NCBI GenBank assembly: GCA_903861045.1
Contig: CAIOST010000294.1
Span: 1 to 42,972 of the forward strand
DNA from: an uncultured bacterium
Lineage (GTDB): Bacteria > Verrucomicrobiota > Kiritimatiellia > RFP12 > CAIWXQ01
Direction: 5' to 3'
DNA length: 42,972 nucleotides
Within the stretch, counting starts at the first letter, position 1. Every line of letters starts with the position of its first letter. The position numbers and the translations under genes were made by a program. Under the pieces are notes generated by a model that saw nothing but the letters and a program-made list of their open reading frames with translations, did no database searches and was not told the DNA's origin. This document shows positions 3,359 through 41,491 of this stretch, in pieces.

Positions 3359-3569
3359 GCGCGCCTCTGCCTTCCCCGTCCTTTGCAAGAAATCGCCCAT
3401 CGGGGCGGCACCAGCCCACACGGGCCAAACGCATGCCAAACCAGGTCTGGCGTAGCCATGCGATGACGAAGAGCATGGCAGACGCGCGGAAGAACGTCAA
3501 GGCCACCACCCCGCTGAGAGGCGGACAGGGCCACGGCGCAGGCTGTGGACCGGAAACGGCAAGGGCGGC

Positions 3570-36510: not shown

Positions 36511-37695
36511 ATGATCGGCATCTCCAAACTCTACTGCGGCACCGTCGAACAATCCGACCCGCTCCGCTACGGACGGCGCTCCAAGGATCTCCCTTCGCAC
36601 TTGCTGCAATTCTCCCAGGACAAAAAACCGGTGGTGGTGTGGAACGTCGGTCGCCGCTGCAACCTGCACTGCGTGCACTGCTACTCCCACTCCAAGGACC
36701 AGACCTACACCGGCGAACTCGACCAGGCCCAAGGGAAACGGCTGATCGAAGACCTCGCCGACTTCGGCGCGCCGGTCATGCTCTTCTCCGGCGGCGAACC
36801 GCTCATGCGCCCGGACCTGTTCGACCTGATCGGCCACGCCGTCAACCGCAAGATGCGCGCTGTGGTCTCCACCAACGGCACCCTGATCACCGCCGACGTG
36901 GCGGCCCGCCTCAAGGACGCCGGCCTCTCCTATGTCGGCATCAGCCTCGACGGCCTCGAGCCGATGAACGACCGCTTCCGCGGCCTCCCCGGCGCCTTCC
37001 AGCGCGCCCTCGACGGCGTACGCAACTGCCTGGCCCAGGGAGTCAAGGTCGGCCTGCGCTTCACCGTGACGCGCATGAACTACCGCGACGTCGGCGGCAT
37101 CCTCGACCTGGTCCGCGCCGAAGGCATCCCGCGCGTCTGCTTCTACCACCTCGTCTACACCGGCCGCGGCAGCAAGATGATTGACGACAGCCGCATGTCC
37201 CACGCCGAGACCCGCGCCACCGTGGACCTGATCATGGACCGCACCCGCGCCCTGCATGCCGGCGGCCAACCGGTGGAAGTGCTGACCGTGGATAACCACA
37301 CCGACGGTCCCTACCTCTACCTGCGACTCCTGAAAGAAGATCCGGCCCGCGCCGCACAAGTGCTGGAACTTCTGAAAATGAACGGCGGCAATAGCAGCGG
37401 CGTCGGCATCGGCTGCGTGAGCTGGGATGGTTCCGTGCATCCGGACCAGTTCTGGCGCCACCACACGCTGGGCAATGTCCAGGAGCGCCCCTTCAGCGCC
37501 ATCTGGTCGGACCCCAACGATCCACTGCTTTCCAAGCTGCGCAACCGCAAGCCGCACCTCAAAGGGCGCTGCGGCGCCTGCAAGTTTGTCGACATCTGCA
37601 ACGGCAACTTCCGCGTACGCGCTGAGGCCGTCACCGGCGACCTCTGGGCCCCGGAACCGGATTGCTACCTGACCGACCAGGAGATCGTGCTATGA
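36511..37695 (+). CDS. ahbC: radical SAM 12,18-didecarboxysiroheme deacetylase
   Basis: A 394-residue radical SAM protein. The cluster cysteines C50, C54 and C57 are in GRRCNLHCVHCYSH; SGGEPLMRPDLF and a C-terminal second-cluster segment (CGACKFVDICNGNFRVR ... PDC) are present. The N-terminus MIGISKLYCGTVEQSDPLRY is diagnostic of AhbC (also the related NirJ). It removes the acetate side chains of didecarboxysiroheme to give Fe-coproporphyrin III, the third step of the siroheme-dependent haem pathway found in sulfate reducers and archaea. NirJ of haem d1 synthesis is the alternative, but no nirS, nirF or nirE lies in this cluster. AAAGGATC precedes the ATG. It overlaps ahbD by four bases. Confidence 0.9.
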   Translation: MIGISKLYCGTVEQSDPLRYGRRSKDLPSHLLQFSQDKKPVVVWNVGRRCNLHCVHCYSHSKDQTYTGELDQAQGKRLIEDLADFGAPVMLFSGGEPLMRPDLFDLIGHAVNRKMRAVVSTNGTLITADVAARLKDAGLSYVGISLDGLEPMNDRFRGLPGAFQRALDGVRNCLAQGVKVGLRFTVTRMNYRDVGGILDLVRAEGIPRVCFYHLVYTGRGSKMIDDSRMSHAETRATVDLIMDRTRALHAGGQPVEVLTVDNHTDGPYLYLRLLKEDPARAAQVLELLKMNGGNSSGVGIGCVSWDGSVHPDQFWRHHTLGNVQERPFSAIWSDPNDPLLSKLRNRKPHLKGRCGACKFVDICNGNFRVRAEAVTGDLWAPEPDCYLTDQEIVL

Positions 37696-38831
37696 AGGAC
37701 GCGCTTCGGCTGGTCTTCTGGGAGTTGACCGCGCGCTGCAACCTGAAGTGCTGCCACTGCCGCGCCGAGGCACAGGACGCCTTTGTCGCCGGCGAACTGA
37801 CCACCGCGCAGATTCTCGCGGTGGCGCGCGATATCCGCGCCACCGGCGATCCGATCATGATCCTCACCGGCGGGGAACCGCTGGTGCGCCAGGATTTCTT
37901 CGACATCGCCGCGGCCTGCTCCGGCCTGTTCAGCCGCGTGGCGCTGGCAACCAACGGCACCATGGTGGACGATGAGATGGCCCGCCGCATCCAACGCGCC
38001 GGTATCCAGCGCGTCAGCGTCAGCCTCGACGGCGCCACACCCGCCACGCACGACGCCTTCCGCGGCGTACCCGGCAGTTTTGAGGCCACCGTGCGCGGCT
38101 ACGACGCGCTGATGCGGGCCGGCGTCCCGGTGCAGGTCAACGCCACCGTGGCCCGCAACAATATTGGCGAAGTCGACGCCCTGCTGAAATTTCTACTGGA
38201 GCGCAAGGCCGCCGCGTTCCACGTCTTCGCGCTGGTGCCGGTGGGGTGCGGCGCGCAGATCAGCGAAGAGTCACGCCTCTCGTCCGCACAGATGGAGGAG
38301 TTCCTGCGCTGGCTCTTCACCAAGTCGATTGAGCTGCGCGACCGCATCCACATCAAGGCCACCTGTGCGCCGCAGTACTACCGGATTATGCGCGAGATTT
38401 CGAAGGAAAAAGGGATTCCGCTCCCCGGGGCCCCGCACGGGCACGCGGCCCACGGCGCGCCGGGCGCCGGGCACCCCGCTGCCGGGCACCCCGCTGCCGG
38501 GCATGGCGCGGCCAACGGCATGGAAGCCATGACGCGTGGCTGCCTGGCCGGTTCCGCGGTCTGCTTCCTCTCGCGCATTGGTGATGTACAGCCGTGCGGC
38601 TACCTCCCGCTGCGGGTGGGGAATGTGCTGCAAAAGCCGTTCGGCGAGATCTGGCGCGACTCCGCGGAATTTGCCGCGCTGCGCGACCCGGGCCAACTCA
38701 AGGGGAAATGTGGCAGCTGTGGCTACCGCACGGTCTGCGAAGGGTGCCGCGCCCGCGCCTACGCCGCCACCTCCGACTTCATGTCCGCCGATCCGGATTG
38801 CGCGTATGGGCTGACTACCAGCAAACCATAA
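37692..38831 (+). CDS. ahbD: radical SAM haem synthase (Fe-coproporphyrin III decarboxylase)
   Basis: A 379-residue radical SAM enzyme that converts the two propionates of Fe-coproporphyrin III to vinyls, giving haem b. The first cluster is bound by C16, C20 and C23 (RCNLKCCHCR); the second by C-terminal cysteines (TRGCLAGSAVC ... VQPCGYL ... CGSCGYRTVCEGCR). An insertion at about 250-275, rich in Gly, His, Ala and Pro, comes from a 15-bp tandem repeat (GHPAA units) and is unusual for the family. The start overlaps the ahbC stop (ATGA). The original downstream gene is separated from it by the REP/transposase block at 38835-40160. Confidence 0.9.
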   Translation: MKDALRLVFWELTARCNLKCCHCRAEAQDAFVAGELTTAQILAVARDIRATGDPIMILTGGEPLVRQDFFDIAAACSGLFSRVALATNGTMVDDEMARRIQRAGIQRVSVSLDGATPATHDAFRGVPGSFEATVRGYDALMRAGVPVQVNATVARNNIGEVDALLKFLLERKAAAFHVFALVPVGCGAQISEESRLSSAQMEEFLRWLFTKSIELRDRIHIKATCAPQYYRIMREISKEKGIPLPGAPHGHAAHGAPGAGHPAAGHPAAGHGAANGMEAMTRGCLAGSAVCFLSRIGDVQPCGYLPLRVGNVLQKPFGEIWRDSAEFAALRDPGQLKGKCGSCGYRTVCEGCRARAYAATSDFMSADPDCAYGLTTSKP

Positions 38832-38834
38832 AGG

Positions 38835-39071
38835 AAAAGAAAACGCCGTTCCCTGCCGGCTTGCCGGCAGGAACGAAAAATCGATCTTGGCTTCCGGCGG
38901 GCAAGCCCGCCGGGGAGCAAAAGAAAACAACCGACACCAGCTCCCCGGCGACCTTGGTCGCCGGAAGCAAGACTCTGACAGCAACGGCGCCAGCACACAG
39001 CAAAGCAAGCAAGATGCCAGAAACCACTGACAACGGCGCCCCGGCGACCTTGGGTCGCCGGGAGCAAGATG
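38835..39071. repeat. left REP array of the RAYT unit
   Basis: Four palindromes: P1, stem TGCCGGC with loop TT (38852-38871); P2, stem CCGGCGGGC with loop AA (38894-38913); P3, stem CCGGCGACC with loop TT (38945-38964); P4, the same stem with loop TTG (39041-39061). Bases 38835-38924 recur at 39991-40080 with two mismatches in 90, and bases 39037-39071 recur exactly at 40126-40160. P4 overlaps the 5' end of the transposase gene. Confidence 0.85.
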
Positions 39072-39913
39072 CCCGCTCCGGCGCAGCCACCCCGCCGGCT
39101 GCCACTGCCTTTGCCCCCCCCCACGCCCTGTACACCGGCCACAACGTCCACTCCGCGTACGCGCTACGTTACGACTGGACCGGTTGGCCGACCGCTGGCA
39201 CCTGCCTGCCGCCGAACGCCAGCGACCTCGCACATGCCACCGCCCCCGCCTGGGAGGCTGATGGTCTTCACTTGCTCGAACTGCGTGCGCACCTGGACCG
39301 CATCCAGATGCTCTTTAGTGTCACGCCGCAAGTCAGCCCAATCTTTTTCACGCAACGCGTAAAAGGCAGATTACAGCACGCGTTGCATCAGGCAGGTGCG
39401 CCCATAACATTCAGTCGTAAAGTTGCGTTCCGCAGTCTGGGCGAAAACACCTCGGAAATCGTGGCGCAGTATATTCGCGGCCAGGTTGGCAAAGAAGACT
39501 GGGCCGATCCACGGTACCGGGAGATCCTGAAGCAGTTCACCGTGCGACCCGCGACCGTGCGATTGGAGGAAGCGTCGGAAACCAACAGCGGCCGCTATTG
39601 GTACAATCTACACGTTGTGCTAGTCGTAGCGGGACGCGACCGCATCACAAATCCCGCGATATTAACCGTCATGCGCGACGCCGTATTCGCAACCGCAGAA
39701 ACCGAAGGCCATCGCATCGCGGCATGCGCTCTGATGCCTGACCACGTTCACCTGTCGCTACGAGGCAACCTGGAGCGCACACCACAAGAGATCGCTCTGG
39801 CTTTTCAGAACAGTCTGGCACATGCGGCAGGCTGCCGCGTTTGGCAAGACAGCTATTATGCAGGAACATTCAGCGAGTATGATCTCGATACGGTTCGACG
39901 CCTGGCTGACTGA
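39014..39913 (+). CDS. REP-associated Y1 (HUH) transposase, RAYT-like
   Basis: A 299-residue protein. The HUH nickase motif is in ALMPDHVHLSL (H244, H246), and a downstream helix SYYAGTFSEYDLDTVRRL carries the candidate nucleophilic tyrosine (Y281 or Y282). The long N-terminal extension (about 35-190; LYTGHNVHSAYALRYDW, KGRLQHALHQ, FRSLGENTSEIVAQYI) is seen in a PVC/planctomycete subgroup of Y1 transposases. Known of RAYTs: they nick and join REP palindromes and are usually single-copy, flanked by REPs, as here. The ATG at 39014 is the best start, but its first 20 codons are REP sequence, so translation may begin later. It lies in the haem operon's direction and breaks the ahbD-ygbA junction. 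Confidence 0.8.
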   Translation: MPETTDNGAPATLGRREQDARSGAATPPAATAFAPPHALYTGHNVHSAYALRYDWTGWPTAGTCLPPNASDLAHATAPAWEADGLHLLELRAHLDRIQMLFSVTPQVSPIFFTQRVKGRLQHALHQAGAPITFSRKVAFRSLGENTSEIVAQYIRGQVGKEDWADPRYREILKQFTVRPATVRLEEASETNSGRYWYNLHVVLVVAGRDRITNPAILTVMRDAVFATAETEGHRIAACALMPDHVHLSLRGNLERTPQEIALAFQNSLAHAAGCRVWQDSYYAGTFSEYDLDTVRRLAD

Positions 39914-39925
39914 CGATGCAGAGAA

Positions 39926-40160
39926 TCTTGGCTACCGGCGGGCAAGCCCGCCGGGGAGCAAGAGACCACCGATGCCTACAACGCTTACAAAAAAGAAAAC
40001 GCCGTTCCCTGCCGGCTTGCCGGCAGGAACGAAAAATCTATCTTGGCTACCGGCGGGCAAGCCCGCCGGGGAGCAAAAGAGCCCAGCGCCCCGGCAACTA
40101 GCCCGCTTGAAAGAAAAGAAGCCGACGCCCCGGCGACCTTGGGTCGCCGGGAGCAAGATG
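39926..40160. repeat. right REP array of the RAYT unit
   Basis: In the same orientation as the left array: a solo P2 (39935-39954), then P1 (40008-40027) and P2 (40050-40069) within a 90-bp near-copy of the left unit (39991-40080), then P4 (40130-40150) within a 35-bp exact copy (40126-40160). The array runs into the 5' end of ygbA. Confidence 0.85.
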
Positions 40161-40481
40161 ATACCAGCGCCGGCGATTCCCGGACGCTGCAGGCCATGCT
40201 GGCGATCTATTGCCGCGGCCAGCACGCCAGCACCGGCGCGCTCTGTGCCGAATGCCACGCGTTGCTGGCGTATGCTCAGGAAAAAATTGGCCAAGTGCCC
40301 GTTCGGCGCGCAGAAGCCCACCTGTGCCAACTGCCCCATCCACTGCTACCAACCCGCCCAGCGCGCGGCCATCCGCGCGGTCATGGCCTACGCCGGCCCG
40401 CGCATGCTCCTGCGCCACCCAATGATGGCCCTGCAACACACCCTCGCCGGACTACGCCCGCCCGCAAAACCCACCCCATGA
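40139..40481 (+). pseudogene. ygbA: YgbA-family (nitrous-oxide-stimulated promoter) protein, frameshifted
   Basis: Two frames together give a full YgbA-type cysteine protein of about 100 residues: RTLQAMLAIYCRGQH...ALCAECHALLAYAQEK in the first, then KCPFGAQKPTCANC, PIHCYQPAQR and AVMAYAGPRMLLRHPM in the next. The switch falls on a run of six A residues at 40281-40286; one A fewer restores the frame. This may be a real mutation, a sequencing error or slippage. The second frame's stop overlaps the ahbAB start by four bases (ATGA), so it belongs to this operon. E. coli ygbA is NsrR-controlled and linked to nitric oxide stress. The start is unclear: TTG 40139 lies in REP sequence; ATG 40196 begins inside the domain. 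Confidence 0.75.
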
Positions 40482-41491
40482 CAACTTCCGCAGAAACTGC
40501 TGACAAACAACTCCTGGTCGCGCTGCAAAAAGGGCTCCCGCTGGAGCCGCGCCCGTTTGCCCGCCTCAGCGCACCGCTCGGCCTGACCGAAGCCGCCGTG
40601 CTGGAAAAGGTGCATGCGCTCTTTGCCAGCGGCGTGGCGCGGCGCTTCGGCGCCGTCTTCGATGCCCGCAGCCTCGGGTACGAAAGCACCCTCTGCGCCA
40701 CAGATTTGCCCACGACCACCATGGAGGCCGCCGCCCGCCGCATCGTTTCGCACCCCGGCATCACCCACTGCTACGAACGCGATGGCCACCCCAACCTCTG
40801 GTTTACCATGACCGCGCCCGCCGGCGAGGTCGCCCGCGAGATCGAGCGCGTCGCTGCGGCCCTAGGTGCGGCGCAAGCCGTCTGGAGCCTCCCGGCCCTA
40901 CGCCTCTTCAAGATCGAAGCCGTCTTCGGCAAGGAGTCCGAAGCGGCGGCCCGTCCCGCCGCTGCCCGCGCCACCACACCCGCCGCACCGCTCACGGAGC
41001 GCGAGCAGCAGGTGGTGCGTCGCCTGCAGGCCGACCTCGCGGTGACCGAAAACCCCTTTGGCACCATCGCCGCGGAGCTGGCATATGACTCCGCCGAACT
41101 GCTCGCGCTGCTGCAGCGCTGGCAGCAGAGCGGCATCATCCGCCGCATCGGCTTGGTGCTGCGCCATCGCCAACTAGGGCTCTCTGCCAACAGCATGTGC
41201 GTCTGGCCAGTCCCACCGGAGCGCATCGAGGCCGCTGGCACCTCGCTGGCACGCAGCCCGCATGTCTCGCACTGCTACGAGCGGCCATGCTTTGCCGCCT
41301 TCCCGTACAACCTCTACGCCATGATCCATGCCCCCTCGCGCGAGGCCGCGGTGGCGCTCTTCGAGCAGTTGCAAGGCGACGCCGGCCTGACCAACGGCCG
41401 CATGCTCTGGTCCATGCGTGAGTTCAAAAAAGCCAGCCCCATCTTTTTCGGCGCGCCGCCGCCCACGCTGGAAGGCCCAACCCCCGCATGA
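40478..41491 (+). CDS. siroheme decarboxylase, AhbA-AhbB fusion
   Basis: A 337-residue protein made of two homologous halves: about 1-150 (RRFGAVFDARSLGYESTLC ... THCYERDGHPNLWFTM) and about 172-330 (RRIGLVLRHRQLGLSANSM ... SHCYERPCFAAFPYNLYAMIH). Each half has the Lrp/AsnC-like winged helix plus a RAM-like fold of the AhbA/AhbB (NirD/L/G/H) family. In sulfate reducers AhbA and AhbB are separate and form a heterodimer that removes two carboxylates from siroheme to give 12,18-didecarboxysiroheme. Here both are joined by an Ala/Pro linker. The HRQLG histidine of the second half fits AhbB-type chemistry. The start overlaps ygbA and the stop overlaps cbiK, each by four bases. Confidence 0.88.
   Translation: MTTSAETADKQLLVALQKGLPLEPRPFARLSAPLGLTEAAVLEKVHALFASGVARRFGAVFDARSLGYESTLCATDLPTTTMEAAARRIVSHPGITHCYERDGHPNLWFTMTAPAGEVAREIERVAAALGAAQAVWSLPALRLFKIEAVFGKESEAAARPAAARATTPAAPLTEREQQVVRRLQADLAVTENPFGTIAAELAYDSAELLALLQRWQQSGIIRRIGLVLRHRQLGLSANSMCVWPVPPERIEAAGTSLARSPHVSHCYERPCFAAFPYNLYAMIHAPSREAAVALFEQLQGDAGLTNGRMLWSMREFKKASPIFFGAPPPTLEGPTPA

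Follow-up and report, generated by a model that had tools for sequence, protein, structure and literature searches.

The window analysed here, a stretch of 42,972 nucleotides from an uncultured bacterium of the Kiritimatiellia, carries a small mobile gene, which lies between DNA hairpins within a haem-synthesis operon and encodes two Y1 domains that are fused head-to-tail and have decayed in complementary ways. This two-domain fusion with its split active site was missed by an earlier note on the same DNA, which described the gene as a RAYT transposase between arrays of repetitive extragenic palindromes (REPs). We estimate a probability of roughly 0.8 that the locus is a RAYT/IS200-like single-strand unit of the form REP(+)-fused Y1-REP(-), which sits at the junction of ahbD and ygbA, uses one composite active site and moves its own REPs.

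The fused gene (39014 to 39913, plus strand) encodes 299 amino acids, as delineated with Pfam, an AF2 model and a 24-row alignment. Its start codon is uncertain (the ATG at 39014 was used); the reading frame is open far upstream and the conserved part begins at around residue 40. The Pfam profile Y1_Tnp (PF01797) matches the protein in two stretches with 58.8 bits (cut-off 23), and both stretches together pass the cut-off of the NCBIfam IS200 equivalog (58.2 bits versus 55), in agreement with the Y1 HUH gene that had been placed between the arrays. The N-terminal domain (approximately residues 44 to 165, positions 39143 to 39508, plus strand) has kept Tyr153 and Gln157 but lost the HUH motif, which reads DRIQ, whereas the C-terminal domain (approximately residues 186 to 299, positions 39569 to 39910, plus strand) has kept HUH (D243 H244 V H246) and ends before the Tyr position. 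In a profile search of the genome, the match at 39245 to 39484 covers positions 34 to 121 of the 121 positions of Y1_Tnp and includes the Tyr end, and the match at 39602 to 39901 covers positions 5 to 116 and stops just before it. When aligned with each other, the profiles of the two domains are in register (E 2.6e-6, probability 89): DRIQ faces DHVH, and Tyr153 faces the final residues of the C-terminal domain. Members of the Y1 superfamily are defined by HUH and a downstream Tyr in one domain; here, no single domain has both and their order along the chain is inverted. The AF2 model contains two complete Y1 folds (pTM 0.81, mean pLDDT 85), its confidence being lowest at residues 141 to 170 (pLDDT 64 to 70), where the Tyr helix sits, and the top Foldseek matches are the TnpA proteins of ISDra2 and IS608 (TM about 0.8 by target, approximately 125 columns). 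A search of plasmids gave one weak IS200/IS605 match over 38% of the query and no relative that spans the greater part of it, and only a generic transposase family was matched in PHROGs.

A scan of one genome per species, with a 14-row alignment as the query, revealed 68 loci, nearly all of them in MAGs of Planctomycetes, Kiritimatiellae, Lentisphaerae and Verrucomicrobia; within the class, 33 of 346 genomes have a match, and the fused gene is mostly single-copy in the genomes searched. The only cultured named strain among the homologues is Rhodopirellula solitaria CA85 (L182), in which REPs adjoin the gene. Conservation was counted over 68 homologues, non-redundant at 97% and with identities down to 24%. 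Tyr153 is present in 67 of these, and His244, His246 and Gln157, the Gln at Tyr+4, in all 68; these four residues are among only nine of 254 columns that are conserved to at least 98.5%. The HUH motif of the N-terminal domain has His at its first position in a single homologue and at its second position in two (Gln in 59), and Tyr-x3-Gln was found in none of the 68 C-terminal domains. The two most divergent homologues, L054 and L055, have the sole C-terminal tails with a Tyr (GYMRKW and KYLDDW), without Gln at +4, and are possible intermediates of the decay. A derivative of 187 amino acids (G132:C48:9534-10010), in which residues 49 to 154 are joined to residues 244 to 296 and the intervening stretch is absent, is either an internal deletion or a regulator.

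Eight palindromes surround the fused gene, and their orientation can be read from the centre, which is CTTG in plus and CAAG in minus hairpins. Upstream of the gene, they follow each other in the order + - + +: P1 (38847 to 38876, plus), P2 (38890 to 38918, minus, with CAAG on the plus strand), P3 (38940 to 38968, plus) and P4 (39037 to 39071, plus). The order downstream is - + - +, with P2b (39931 to 39959, minus), P1b (40003 to 40032, plus), P2c (40046 to 40074, minus) and P4b (40126 to 40160, plus), the latter directly 5' of the ygbA remnant. P4, the last upstream REP, which lies within the reading frame if the ATG at 39014 is the start, and P2b, the first downstream REP, form the bounds of a '+ gene -' unit. 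The repeats described in the earlier note are all present: a unit of 90 nt (38835 to 38924) recurs at 39991 to 40080 with 98% identity and two mismatches, a unit of 35 nt (39037 to 39071) recurs exactly at 40126 to 40160 within a 38-nt pair of 97% identity, and the loops of P1 to P4 are TT, AA, TT and TTG. Its term 'same-orientation REP arrays' holds for the arrays, which are direct repeats of each other, but not for single hairpins, which switch orientation.

The palindromes beside the gene form a distinct class of REPs with a CTTG loop, a covarying basal stem and an AAGWTY foot. A covariance model built from 17 hairpins of the window's own genome (R1), which was used for the genome-wide REP counts, yields 106 matches in this genome at E<1e-3, 98 of which lie outside the window, and the palindromes are thus more than chance; the earlier note had named their absence elsewhere in the genome as evidence against its reading. 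In a set of 124 distinct hairpins, taken from the own genome and from others, pairing reaches 91%, and two-sided changes number 304, compared to 96 in shuffled controls and at most 53 with slid partners. Building R1 from the own genome favours the core stem but not the basal stem, which is absent from R1 and also covaries (GCT/AGC, CGT/ACG, CGC/GCG). The class consensus is CC-CC...CTNG...GG-N with the AAGWTY foot 3' of the CTTG hairpin, corresponding to RAWCTT 5' of the hairpin on the opposite strand. Published REP classes carry GTRG or CGTC tags (PMC3733652, PMC6006769); GTRG is absent from the 5' foot of the consensus described here, in which the outer bases form the covarying basal stem. 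A search of Rfam gave no match.

These hairpins are concentrated at the fused gene. Across 59 loci in named genomes, the density of CTTG/CAAG hairpins is 2.09 per kb up to a distance of 500 bp from the gene versus 0.032 per kb beyond, a 66-fold enrichment, and the class adjoins the gene in 42 of the 59 loci. The last upstream REP is in plus orientation in 29 of 35 loci and the first downstream REP in minus orientation in 28 of 35. No such hairpin was found in 99 kb of ygbA control loci and the ahbD locus L057, and the other Y1 loci of the own genome have no R1 match. R1 matches are present in nine of ten genomes with the fused gene, in some of them mainly beside the gene, and in one of ten genomes without it. 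The exception with the gene is G139, which has zero R1 matches at genome scale, probably because its hairpin stems have diverged from the model. The exception without the gene, G001, a MAG of the window's genus with a completeness of 87%, has six R1 matches, and the fused gene was not found in it, which reflects either gene loss or a gap in the MAG. At locus L174, a regular REP array with a period of approximately 61 bp is found on both sides of the fused gene (2179 to 2479 and 3394 to 3507).

REPs of the own genome also form miniature elements. Twenty '+-' pairs with a start-to-start distance of 145 to 167 bp were found, compared to one '-+' pair; these are two inverted REPs with fixed spacing in many copies, as in REPINs. 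The '+-' pairs align as elements of approximately 210 bp with a common inner palindrome (GCGCGAGG...CCTCGCGC); examples in the own genome (G000) are C1:2668-2885, C142:6481-6697 and C30:50125-50341. The orientation of these '+ core -' elements matches that of the '+ gene -' unit, and their REPs differ in detail from those at the gene, which is itself single-copy in this genome. The miniature elements are presumably moved by the fused enzyme. Movement of the unit is best supported by a relative and not by the window locus: in one MAG of the Pirellulaceae, the two gene copies L181 and L183 share 94.5% identity over 1028 bp, including the bounding hairpins, while their flanks differ.

The insertion site lies between ahbD and ygbA. 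Upstream of the insert, positions 37692 to 38831 (plus strand) contain an ahbD-like radical SAM gene (haem b synthase), whose top NCBIfam match is TIGR04545 (405.8 bits, under the cut-off of 500) and whose product is 77% identical to AhbD of the genome G106. Positions 38430 to 38510 of this gene encode an insertion that is rich in Gly/Ala/His/Pro and contains short direct repeats (GHPAAGHPAAGHGAA), and AhbD of G106 and G010 have similar His/Gly-rich insertions. Downstream of the insert, a remnant of ygbA (nitrous-oxide-stimulated promoter family; 40175 to 40480, plus strand) is followed by ahbA-ahbB, the subunits of siroheme decarboxylase, as one fused reading frame (40481 to 41491, plus strand; NF040708 and NF040707 above their cut-offs). 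The YgbA_NO match of the remnant is split over two frames, with the shift close to an A6 run at about 40278, and its native start region is missing, whereas nearly all other genomes that have a match encode ygbA in a single frame. The gene is probably a pseudogene, or misassembly of the A6 run could account for the frameshift; the missing start region suggests that ygbA is broken in both cases. In G106 and G323, the order ahbC-ahbD-ygbA-ahbAB is uninterrupted: ahbD and ygbA overlap in G106, where the start of ygbA is intact and ahbAB comes next, and they are adjacent in G323, compared to approximately 1.34 kb between the two genes in the window. Relatives without the insert, which the earlier note had asked for, are thus at hand, and its view that a Y1 gene and the REPs belonging to it are inserted at the ahbD-ygbA junction is borne out. 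At the sequence level, neither a target-site duplication nor an empty site was found. G010 was considered as an empty site; there, ahbD is followed by a terminator-like hairpin and a convergent catalase gene, without ygbA, which makes this genome uninformative.

It had further been claimed that operon continuity depends on transcription through strong hairpins, and here the case is weaker. Between 38700 and 40300, seven terminator-like sites were detected, six on the minus strand and one on the plus strand, which lies inside the gene; the bias towards the minus strand arises because the hairpins lead into A-rich and not T-rich sequence on the plus strand. A role of the REPs as intrinsic terminators for the coding strand is unsupported, as they lack a terminator pattern there, and any effect of the insert on the expression of ahbAB would be a guess.

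In IS608, the active site is formed in trans: one monomer contributes the Tyr on its helix alphaD, the other the HUH motif, and Gln131 acts as a metal ligand (PMC5934647, PMC6006769). The enzyme of the window arose by head-to-tail joining of two Y1 domains, which then lost complementary halves of their active sites. By analogy with IS608, helix alphaD of the N-terminal domain would provide Tyr153 as the nucleophile and Gln157 as the third metal ligand, and the C-terminal domain the two HUH histidines. Both halves would make up a single composite site, the counterpart of one of the two trans sites in the IS608 TnpA dimer and, as we infer, frozen in one chain. The enzyme would recognise its own class of single-stranded REP hairpins and nick near the hairpin foot via a 5'-phosphotyrosine, thereby allowing copying or movement of the gene unit and of the non-autonomous '+ core -' REP pairs; catalysis, the strand and the cut site are predictions from this analogy.

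Each domain alone lacks half of its catalytic residues and the gene is single-copy in most genomes searched, as are domesticated RAYTs, and the protein might thus be a catalytically dead, domesticated REP-binding protein, whose halves are kept for DNA binding only. This is quite unlikely, as Tyr, Gln and both His would be expected to be lost in a dead enzyme but remain among the most conserved columns at identities down to 24%, and near-identical paralogues occur with different flanks. A possible, albeit doubtful, alternative is that two fused chains form a domain-swapped homodimer with two composite sites between them, which would work like IS608: IS608 TnpA swaps alphaD between chains (PMC5934647), and the Tyr helix and the linker fall into the low-confidence, probably flexible region of the model. 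However, the single chain folds in the model with the pTM given above and already contains both halves; Tyr153 may reach the HUH motif of its own chain or that of a partner chain.

The dispersed palindromes could also belong to another mobile element, into whose array the fused gene has landed; further Y1 genes exist in the own genome, and the 210-bp elements carry REPs that are not identical in detail to those beside the gene. Against this unlikely reading stand the rarity of the hairpin class away from the fused gene, the other Y1 loci of the own genome, which lack hairpins, and the genomes without the gene, most of which lack them too. That the locus is simply an ordinary RAYT with its REPs fits the palindromes flanking the gene and dispersed genome-wide, but is very improbable and, as a complete description, refuted by the two Y1 domains with split residues; moreover, the NCBIfam RAYT model REP_Tyr_transpos reaches 19.9 bits, far below its equivalog cut-off of 80, and the REP consensus has no GTRG foot. 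Of the term RAYT in the earlier note, the REP-flanked Y1 gene therefore stands and the assignment to the standard family does not.

Several known systems come close to the unit. With TnpA of IS200/IS605 elements such as IS608 and ISDra2, the protein shares the Y1 fold and HUH, Tyr and Gln at Tyr+4 and, by analogy, probably an active site between two Y1 domains and the recognition of single-stranded hairpins; unlike TnpA of IS608 and ISDra2, it has two domains per chain, would keep one of the two composite sites and is not accompanied by tnpB, and multi-REP arrays with 98 dispersed copies replace the single LE/RE pair of IS200/IS605. RAYT/TnpAREP genes and REPtrons (PMC2817692, PMC6006769, PMC8266576) are similar in that a mostly single-copy Y1 gene lies in inverted REP arrays and hairpins of the same class are dispersed in the genome, partly as REPIN-like pairs. 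However, known TnpAREP proteins have one Y1 domain with both motifs, whereas these are split over two domains here, and known REPs carry a 5' GTRG foot instead of the CTTG loop and AAGWTY foot. A further trait of RAYT/TnpAREP enzymes is that their catalytic Tyr cuts single-stranded REPs at CT. Class 3 TnpAY1 proteins (PMC6006769) likewise occur in Planctomycetes, have a Tyr motif with Gln and are flanked by atypical hairpins in a REPtron-like manner, but they are single-domain proteins (median 178 aa) with Gln at Tyr+5 and a CnGA foot, and the fused protein, with its two domains, Gln at Tyr+4 and other foot, falls outside this class. The miniature elements resemble REPINs and BIMEs (PMC3116915), which consist of two inverted REPs with a short core in many copies, but their core is longer and has its own palindrome (approximately 210 bp in total), and their REPs are of another class. 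In the literature searched, which left most subscription journals outside its scope, no description of a two-domain Y1 protein was found.

Taken together, the new point, within a known kind of element, is a Y1 enzyme of two fused domains with complementary losses and a REP class of its own. It is a clear example of domains that decayed in a complementary way once they were fused, and REP biology now includes a distinct class of hairpins from Planctomycetes, Kiritimatiellae, Lentisphaerae and Verrucomicrobia. The explanation given for IS608-type transposition is a dimer with two shared active sites, and TnpAREP of E. coli reportedly crystallised as a monomer; with a naturally occurring single-chain enzyme that has exactly one shared site, one could ask directly how many sites REP mobilisation needs. 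The chances are about even that, in this Y1 family of PVC bacteria, the homodimer has been replaced by a single chain with exactly one composite site, which would have to carry out strand exchange through sequential reactions at one Tyr and moves its own REP/REPIN class. If true, the REPs and REPINs moved by this fused PVC family would be a so far undescribed class.
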